Shown in pieces: positions 340-7,860 of a stretch of DNA of 64,000 nucleotides. Origin of the DNA: Parapedobacter pyrenivorans (GTDB taxonomy: Bacteria; Bacteroidota; Bacteroidia; Sphingobacteriales; Sphingobacteriaceae); contig NZ_BMER01000005.1 of NCBI RefSeq assembly GCF_014636865.1, positions 1-64,000 on the forward strand, written 5' to 3'. The position numbers were made by a program, and so were the translations under genes. How positions within the stretch are numbered: the first letter of the stretch is position 1; every line of letters begins with the position of its first letter. The notes below the pieces were generated by a model, which made no database searches, was not told the DNA's origin, and saw nothing but the letters and a program-made list of their open reading frames with translations.

Positions 340-1861
<1,522 letters not shown>

Positions 1862-1978
1862 CTAGGGTACCCCATCGGTACTCGCCACGCACATGGATCA
1901 TCAATTGACTTCAAAAAGGAAAAAAGAAGAATAGGACACCGTTCCCTTACACGGTATCCGACAGGCAAGAGATAAGCT

Positions 1979-2052
1979 AGTCCCGTAGCTCAGTTGGTTA
2001 GAGCACTACACTGATAATGTAGGGGTCAGCAGTTCAAGTCTGCTCGGGACTA
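1979..2052 (+). tRNA. tRNA-Ile (GAT)
   Basis: The cloverleaf is complete. The acceptor AGTCCCG pairs with CGGGACT, the anticodon loop CTGATAA gives anticodon GAT, and the T-arm is AGCAG-TTCAAGT-CTGCT. The discriminator base is A and a full CCA is not encoded. It sits in the 16S-23S spacer, the usual place for an Ile/Ala pair. Confidence 0.96.
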
Positions 2053-2060
2053 CCGATTTC

Positions 2061-2134
2061 GGGGAATTAGCTCAGCTGGCTAGAGCACCTGCCTTGCACG
2101 CAGGGGGTCAACGGTTCGAATCCGTTATTCTCCA
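2061..2134 (+). tRNA. tRNA-Ala (TGC)
   Basis: The cloverleaf is complete. The acceptor GGGGAAT pairs with ATTCTCC (one G-U), the anticodon loop CTTGCAC gives TGC, and the T-arm is AACGG-TTCGAAT-CCGTT. It starts 8 nt after tRNA-Ile in the rRNA spacer. The CCA end is not encoded. Confidence 0.96.
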
Positions 2135-2178
2135 CGGTTTTCGTTGGATGTGCGGATGCACAGGTAAACGGAAAAAAA

Positions 2179-2194
2179 GTTCTTTGACATATTG
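2179..2194 (+). promoter_or_regulatory. boxA-like element before 23S
   Basis: GTTCTTTGACATATTG lies in the 16S-23S spacer, about 90 nt before 23S. It is the second copy of the leader motif at 170-186. Antitermination or processing is the likely role. Confidence 0.4.
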
Positions 2195-2286
2195 GAAGAA
2201 AACAAGAAGAGAGAAGAGAGGGCAACAGAAGCCGTCCGCGCGAGCGGCGGCAAGAGCAGCCGCATGGTAGCAAAAGGCTATGCGGT

Positions 2287-5165
<2,879 letters not shown>

Positions 5166-6723: not shown

Positions 6724-7527
6724 CTAATCTTCATACTCGCGTAGCTCAAAAAATTGCCGTATAGGCTGAAACCTGCGATGTAATTCTACCGCAAAGCCGA
6801 ATACAAGCAGTACAGGACCGGTGTTATCGATTTGTTGTTCTTCCGCAACCTCAACAATGGTATTTACCAAGCCGATTGCGACTTTCTCATTGACCATGGA
6901 ACCATTTTGGATTATAGCGGCCGGCAACCTCCCCCTACCCGCTTCCTGATAAATTGCTACAATCTCCTGAAGCCTATCGAAACCAAGCAAAACTACTACT
7001 GTAGCCCTGCTCCGCGCGGCATCCTTTAGCTCACCGGATAATTTACCGCTCTCGTCAGTGCCCGAGAGTATCCACAAACTATCGCTCAGCCCACCATGGG
7101 TAACAGGAATCCCCTGCAAACCTGGAACGGAGATAGCGCTCGATATACCTGGCACAATATCCGTCTCGATACTGTAGGACTCCGCGAAGCTTAACTCCTC
7201 ATATCCCCGACCGAAAACAAACAGATCTCCTCCTTTCAGCCTAACAACATGTCCAAAATTCAACGCGTAATCGACCATTAATTGATTAACTACATCTTGG
7301 GAAAAGTTTTCATCCCCTGATGGGTTCCCAACATACACCTTAATTGATTCCCGAGGAGCATAGTCCAATAACCTTTCATCCACTAGTGCGTCGTATAGGA
7401 CAACATTTGCCGCCTTCAATGCGTTCACGCCTTTAATGCTAATTAAATCGGGATCTCCCGGTCCAGCGCCGACAATCGTGATCTTGGGATCAACATATTG
7501 CTTTTTAGAAGCGATTTCTACTGCCAT
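6724..7527 (-). CDS. cobA: Uroporphyrinogen-III C-methyltransferase (SUMT)
   Basis: This 267-aa cytoplasmic enzyme uses two S-adenosylmethionine to methylate uroporphyrinogen III to precorrin-2. That is the first committed step to siroheme, the cofactor of sulfite (and nitrite) reductase. The TP-methylase signatures are clear: IVGAGPGDPDLISIKG near the N-terminus, VRLKGGDLFVFGRG near residue 100, and VPGISSAISVPGLQGIPVTH. The length is normal for a single-domain SUMT with no fused synthase or CysG part. The gene is monocistronic here, downstream of a leader peptide plus terminator/antiterminator pair (7555-7720). This suggests its expression follows cysteine or sulfur supply. Confidence 0.95.
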   Translation of the reverse strand: MAVEIASKKQYVDPKITIVGAGPGDPDLISIKGVNALKAANVVLYDALVDERLLDYAPRESIKVYVGNPSGDENFSQDVVNQLMVDYALNFGHVVRLKGGDLFVFGRGYEELSFAESYSIETDIVPGISSAISVPGLQGIPVTHGGLSDSLWILSGTDESGKLSGELKDAARSRATVVVLLGFDRLQEIVAIYQEAGRGRLPAAIIQNGSMVNEKVAIGLVNTIVEVAEEQQIDNTGPVLLVFGFAVELHRRFQPIRQFFELREYED

Positions 7528-7554: not shown

Positions 7555-7594
7555 AAAAAAAGCCTCTTCGATGTTTGATGTGTCGAAGAGGCTT
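7555..7594 (-). terminator. Attenuator terminator in the cobA leader
   Basis: On the minus strand AAGCCTCTTCGA (7594-7583) pairs perfectly with TCGAAGAGGCTT (7571-7560) around an 11-nt loop, followed by TTTTT. It lies upstream of cobA (ATG at 7527), so a polymerase stopping here would not transcribe cobA. The 5' arm can alternatively pair with 7630-7617. Confidence 0.88.
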
Positions 7595-7630
7595 CCTATC
7601 ACTGATAATCCGTACAAAGCACCTTCGACA
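7581..7630 (-). promoter_or_regulatory. Antiterminator helix of the cobA attenuator
   Basis: TGTCGAAGGTGCTT (7630-7617) can pair with AAGCCTCTTCGACA (7594-7581): 13 of 14 positions pair (one G-U, one T/C mismatch). It uses the same bases as the 5' arm of the terminator, so the two structures exclude each other. The upstream arm begins 6 nt after the leader-peptide stop codon, where a ribosome at the stop would cover it. Confidence 0.75.
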
Positions 7631-7636
7631 ATATAG

Positions 7637-7708
7637 CTAACACATTGTGTTTTTGCGCATACACGCCGTGCTGCTGAACAATAGTCTATATGGATTTTTT
7701 GTTTGCAT
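7637..7708 (-). CDS. Leader peptide of the cobA attenuator (23 aa, Cys/Met-rich end)
   Basis: This short ORF (ATG at 7708, stop TAG at 7639-7637) encodes 23 residues. The last eight are CMRKNTMC, so Cys16, Met17, Met22 and Cys23 cluster before the stop. The ATG lies 4 nt after a TATATTTG -7 box, so the mRNA would be leaderless or nearly so. Six nt after the stop begins one arm of an antiterminator. I infer that ribosome stalling at the Cys (or Met) codons permits antitermination, and that completion of the peptide allows termination. I do not recognise a named leader-peptide family. Confidence 0.7.
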   Translation of the reverse strand: MQTKNPYRLLFSSTACMRKNTMC

Positions 7709-7712
7709 GATG

Positions 7713-7720
7713 CAAATATA
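7713..7720 (-). promoter_or_regulatory. -7 box of cobA leader transcript
   Basis: TATATTTG on the minus strand matches TAnnTTTG. The leader-peptide ATG begins 4 nt downstream. No clear -33 TTTG is seen at the usual distance. Confidence 0.6.
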
Positions 7721-7860
7721 CACAAAGTCTACTTGCTAAGTAGATATTTTTTCCGGAACAACCTCAAATTCATCGTAAGTTTTTGTATATGAGGCGTATA
7801 AATTCGTATTGCCTCGAATTAAAGAAACAGCGTAGCTGTATGTAGTTCTTTTATTACCAG

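Follow-up and report, generated by a model that had tools for sequence, protein, structure and literature searches.

The leader that precedes cobA in Parapedobacter pyrenivorans is read here as a ribosome-mediated transcription attenuator of the trp/his type that would sense the charging of tRNA-Cys, an interpretation drawn from the sequence to which we assign a probability of about 0.85. The gene codes for uroporphyrinogen-III C-methyltransferase (SUMT), the enzyme that supplies siroheme to sulfite reductase, on the route to cysteine. The leader is located on the minus strand of the window, i.e. the whole stretch of 64,000 nucleotides that was analysed, and all the features described below for this locus are on that strand. 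The predicted regulated gene, cobA, occupies positions 6724..7527, with its ATG at 7527; it matches PF00590 and scores 219 bits against TIGR01469, above the curated cut-off of 185, which agrees with its earlier identification as SUMT.

The promoter box, the 23-codon ORF, the pairing arms and the terminator were all found where the preliminary description had placed them. The sequence TATATTTG at 7720-7713 conforms to TAnnTTTG, the -7 box recognised by the primary sigma factor of Bacteroidota. It is followed by the leader ORF (uORF) MQTKNPYRLLFSSTACMRKNTMC, which runs from an ATG at 7708 to a TAG stop codon at 7639-7637 and contains two putative control codons, Cys16 (TGT, 7661..7663) and Cys23 (TGT, 7640..7642), the latter being the last codon before the stop and starting 12 nt 5' of arm 2. 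The other sulfur-containing residues of the peptide are Met17 and Met22. The 5' arm of the antiterminator (arm 2, TGTCGAAGGTGCTTT, 7630-7616) starts 6 nt past the stop codon. The shared arm (arm 3, GAAGCCTCTTCGACA, 7595-7581) can pair either with arm 2 or with the 3' arm of the terminator (arm 4, TCGAAGAGGCTT, 7571-7560), which forms a perfect 12-bp stem with positions 7594-7583 and is followed by the U-tract of the intrinsic terminator at 7561-7555. In Flavobacterium psychrophilum the -7 box occupies positions -12 to -5 relative to the transcript start (PMC9723704). Transposed to the window, this spacing places +1 at 7708, the A of the uORF AUG, and the uORF is therefore probably leaderless at this predicted start site. 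Box and AUG are likewise 4 nt apart in the majority of the leaders of this family. Leaderless mRNAs make up just 5.5% in F. psychrophilum (PMC9723704).

A further conserved element was observed 5' of the -7 element, where a CTAC-N7-RTAG-ACTTT box extends over 7743-7713. It begins with a CTAC-N7-GTAG palindrome (7729..7743) immediately 5' of the promoter, and a similar box is present at the sulfite reductase (sir) operon of the same genome (L019:10975-11005, minus strand). When the genome was searched for CTACN7RTAGACTTTNNGTATNTTTG with at most 3 mismatches, three sites were obtained: cobA (0 mismatches), the region before the sir operon (1 mismatch) and one site with 3 mismatches. The CTAC-N7-RTAG box is kept in the cobA upstream regions of Parapedobacter and is a candidate operator, by its appearance one for a regulator of sulfur genes. 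Searches of the same genome for leaders of the form TATATTTG-N4-ATG with Cys codons retrieved the cobA and sir leaders only, the other matches being ordinary gene starts; beyond the window, a search for the STAC-M peptide motif returned only chance matches in coding regions.

The alternative hairpins of the window leader have predicted energies of -17.9 kcal/mol for arms 2:3 and -21.3 kcal/mol for arms 3:4. Since arm 3 is common to both, the antiterminator and the terminator exclude each other, as had been proposed. The fold of the leader is more stable than that of all 200 shuffled versions (z -3.2), the pairing of arm 2 with arm 3 also exceeds that of shuffled sequences (z -3.8), and a terminator of equal length arose in none of 2000 shuffles. 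Two in-frame Cys codons were obtained in 114 of 2000 shuffles; they are thus not rare by chance, and the case rests on conservation.

The preliminary description would have been refuted by a lack of conservation of the ORF and of the pairings in relatives. Both turned out to be conserved, with covarying helices, in Parapedobacter and in other genera. The closest relatives of the window cobA all belong to Parapedobacter (78-83% identity), and the promoter, uORF, Cys codons, antiterminator and terminator are kept in 7 of 8 further genomes of this genus. The uORF of these seven is 26-27 codons long and begins 4 nt past the -7 box. Their peptides are only 9-36% identical to that of the window and retain Cys and Met near the end; in the alignment column of Cys23, Met-Cys or Val-Cys is found in four relatives. 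Outside Parapedobacter, a cobA leader of equal layout occurs in four genomes, three from one genus (L032, L033 and L034) and one from another (L048), with peptides that include MVSNKTHGKFNYMIMCNTCCSRYRL and MRPTNLYMNCMCNLSTS; the weaker terminator of L032 was recognised by eye, having been passed over by the automatic search. The alignment used for covariation comprised 12 cobA leaders from three genera, in which leaders of one genus are non-independent samples. In the antiterminator, two-sided changes were found at 5 of 15 pairs (shuffle mean 2.0, equalled in 5 of 500 shuffles) and 81% of the cells are paired, vs 45-51% in slid versions. In the terminator, 95% of the cells are paired and two-sided changes affect 5 of 12 pairs (1 of 500 shuffles). 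The three arms can be altered in step, as in L033, where arm 3 has CC instead of UU, and arms 2 and 4 each have GG instead of AA. The leader is absent before cobA in the P. soli genome (L018/L031), and L035 is also devoid of it. More generally, the promoter box is kept and the leader ORF or the terminator lost before cobA or sir at L018, L031, L035, L055 and L060; as read from these upstream regions, the attenuator has been lost repeatedly among relatives.

The same leader design is found family-wide upstream of the operon of the HEPN-domain sulfite reductase (gene order sir-cobA-met8-cysH-cysD-cysN). The leader had initially been regarded as a feature of cobA: it is indeed conserved before this gene, but it is not peculiar to it, as it also precedes sir operons. 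In order to evaluate its codon content, 70 sir and 16 cobA upstream regions were submitted to a mechanical rule (uORF starting 1-12 nt past TAnnTTTG, terminator less than 75 nt ahead of the gene), which 59 leaders passed. Cys codons are present in 56 of these 59 leaders, 48 of which carry at least two. Cys accounts for 128 of 1202 codons (10.6%), with 8.7 expected from the background of 0.72% in the long ORFs of the window, an enrichment of about 15-fold. Cys codons are also numerous in frame +1 (8.4%), an excess that is probably the shadow of AUG followed by U; since AUG-U yields such a shadow Cys codon, the frame control for Cys is imperfect. Beyond the start codon, the enrichment of Met comes close to that of Cys (9.6% vs a background of 1.9%; 10.3% when one leader per lineage is retained). 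This enrichment is confined to the uORF frame, the other frames containing 1.3% and 0.5%, and 55 CM or MC dipeptides occur in the 59 leaders. Both sulfur amino acids might consequently be read, a stall at adjoining Cys or Met codons lifting termination. We consider this possible, though clearly less likely than a Cys signal: distant leaders lengthen their Cys runs (CCCC, CCCMCCCC) and not their Met runs, and the internal AUGs may be kept otherwise, for instance as reserve starts. We infer that Cys rather than Cys together with Met is the signal.

The proposed attenuation by tRNA-Cys charging would operate as follows. We infer that the first nucleotide of the transcript is that of the uORF AUG or lies very close to it, and that the leaderless 5' end is where a ribosome binds to translate the uORF. 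When Cys-tRNA is ample, the ribosome would reach the stop codon and mask the first bases of arm 2; arm 3 would then pair with arm 4 and RNA polymerase would halt before cobA. When Cys-tRNA is scarce, the ribosome would stall at Cys16 or Cys23 and leave arm 2 free to pair with arm 3 before the synthesis of arm 4 is complete, and cobA would be transcribed. The geometry of the leader set is consistent with this scheme: arm 2 mostly starts 9-25 nt past the last Cys codon, close to the stop, so that it would remain accessible during a wait at Cys and be covered by a ribosome at the stop. Taken singly, the antiterminator reaches p<0.05 in just 20 of 56 leaders, and in several genera it is weak. In the window, the antiterminator stays at -19 to -20 kcal/mol with a modelled ribosome stalled at Cys16 and would be completely formed ahead of the synthesis of arm 4; with the ribosome at the stop it drops to between -10.5 and -11.6, the terminator (-21.3) being untouched. 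The footprint of a ribosome usually reaches some 15 nt beyond the P site, by which only 3-4 nt of the window arm 2 would be masked from the stop codon. The earlier statement that such a ribosome covers the antiterminator arm is to be qualified accordingly: pairing 2:3 is weakened in the model from -17.9 to -10.5 kcal/mol, but the whole arm is not masked. The remaining Parapedobacter leaders have their stop codon within arm 2, a position that fits the masking geometry.

The stop codon of the window uORF is placed four codons upstream of its position in most relatives; this displacement results in partial masking of arm 2 and the regulation may be shallower. Three cobA paralogues are present in this genome: the window copy (C5:6727-7527), which stands alone, a copy in the sulfate operon (C4:323929-324660) and a third one (C1:424266-424976, L020) that adjoins genes judged by eye to resemble those of nitrate/nitrite assimilation. 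The window copy is flanked by a DUF2490 gene and a convergent gene with an FGE-sulfatase domain; elsewhere in the window, at about 900-4800, many overlapping spurious ORFs were noted, of a kind that rRNA operons usually give. The leader of the genome's own sir operon (L019:10840-10970, minus strand, C4) contains an in-frame peptide, MKKVTQLSIFVAG, without Cys, and two adjacent Cys codons where they would be expected but out of frame, which represents either lost function or a sequence error. Divergent from this operon are the genes of an ABC transporter (L019:11185-14699) whose binding protein is of the PBP_like_2 type; it is possibly an importer of sulfate or another oxyanion and is preceded by a CTAC...TATATTTG promoter. 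Taken together, the moved stop and the out-of-frame sir Cys codons imply that the regulation may be weakened in P. pyrenivorans. The window attenuator could even be a partly decayed relic, with constitutive termination or a weak response to Cys, as the losses at L018/L031, L035, L055 and L060 would also suggest. This is nevertheless unlikely, given that the arms of the window leader are all intact, that its antiterminator (-20.8 kcal/mol) is the strongest of the leader set and that both of its Cys codons are in frame, at least 12 nt before arm 2.

The comparison was extended to leaders of other sulfur-assimilation genes, as the preliminary description had suggested, and the design was found at sir operons both in the family and in other families. 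In a class-level survey, a sir match was obtained in 52 of 197 genomes. Among 22 loci from other families read by eye and by script, 13 display a Cys-rich uORF and a terminator; these span nine family labels (f2, f9, f12, f15, f28, f36, f39, f40 and f41), and their leader peptides carry 2-7 Cys codons each, as in MKTNWTFNGIKATCCTMCCTCCAL or in another peptide with the run CCCMCCCC. Two complete leader/terminator units in series are located 0.4 kb upstream of sir at L137/L140 (f9), L138 (f39) and L147/L148 (f15). The pattern MCCC gave 97 matches in 11 genomes, 30 of which were read; three of these 30 have a short ORF with a terminator behind it, all before sir, which suggests, for the matches read, that the design is restricted to sulfur genes. 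It is more likely than not, though less so than the reading of the cobA leader, that leaderless uORFs with Cys (and Met) codons gate terminators before cobA and sir throughout the class Bacteroidia, in some families in series. If so, two attenuators in series would give a multiplicative two-step response.

The diversity of these peptides bears on the nature of the signal, which might lie in a nascent Cys/Met-rich peptide, as in a metal- or thiol-sensing arrest peptide, instead of in the codons. Its Cys and Met residues could serve as Cu(I) ligands or be modified by thiols or oxidants, and Cys-containing uORFs responsive to copper exist elsewhere. Such a peptide is nonetheless very improbable here, as little is common to the peptides beyond Cys near the end, as the identities to the window peptide given above indicate; the number, spacing and context of the Cys codons vary freely, and the targets are sulfur-assimilation genes. 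Also very improbable is a translation-independent terminator governed by a riboswitch or an RNA-binding protein, the ORF being incidental: the leader is long and structured and the conserved candidate operator suggests other sulfur control, but the Cys codons recur in frame, no conserved aptamer-like core was found outside the arms in the leaders, and Rfam returned nothing relevant in the window at E<=5 and, for 13 related loci, nothing relevant that reached the gathering score. The leader peptides likewise match no NCBIfam model. With neither an NCBIfam model nor an Rfam family, such leaders are overlooked by current annotation.

Attenuation by tRNA-Cys charging would imply that many Bacteroidia probably tune sulfur assimilation by how fast their ribosomes find cysteine. 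Members of this class are abundant in soil, water and gut, and the control of their sulfate assimilation is little described. The leaders offer a concrete mechanism, in what is probably a leaderless form of a textbook circuit, in a phylum with start signals unlike Shine-Dalgarno, and the natural tandem attenuators would form a family.

Like the trp, his and ilv attenuators, the cobA leader combines a short ORF in which the pathway product is encoded, two alternative pairings (2:3 and 3:4) and an intrinsic terminator before the first gene. It differs from them by the amino acid (Cys, perhaps with Met), the phylum (Bacteroidota), the probably leaderless uORF and the genes concerned, those of siroheme synthesis and sulfate reduction. 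Within the open-access literature searched, no report of a Cys attenuator in Bacteroidota was found. Leader-peptide attenuation before amino-acid biosynthesis operons is noted in F. psychrophilum, of the same phylum; the main text names no cysteine leader and mentions neither sulfite nor sulfate (PMC9723704). A response to cysteine was shown for the leaderless polycysteine sORFs of mycobacteria (Canestrari et al. 2020, cited in PMC9031893). They resemble the cobA leader in being short ORFs with Cys codons, leaderless there and predicted to be so here; they are described as acting on translation of the downstream genes, unlike the transcription attenuation proposed for cobA (PMC9031893). The cys leader peptides predicted in silico in Actinobacteria contain Cys runs without conserved terminators (PMC1262725), whereas the cobA leader has both a terminator and an antiterminator. 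In Rhodobacterales, the uORFC-8-2 motif precedes cysS; its uORF contains Cys codons in tandem, an intrinsic terminator is present, and ribosome-mediated attenuation was predicted (PMC8632094). The combination of a uORF with Cys codons and an intrinsic terminator is common to both systems, but uORFC-8-2 belongs to alphaproteobacteria and to a cysteinyl-tRNA synthetase gene, whereas cobA or sir is downstream here and no Rfam model was matched. With Cys attenuators known in mycobacteria and before cysS in Rhodobacterales, the principle is not new; apparently without earlier description are the bacterial group, the target genes, the pairing of an intrinsic terminator with a probable leaderless start, and the tandem arrangement.
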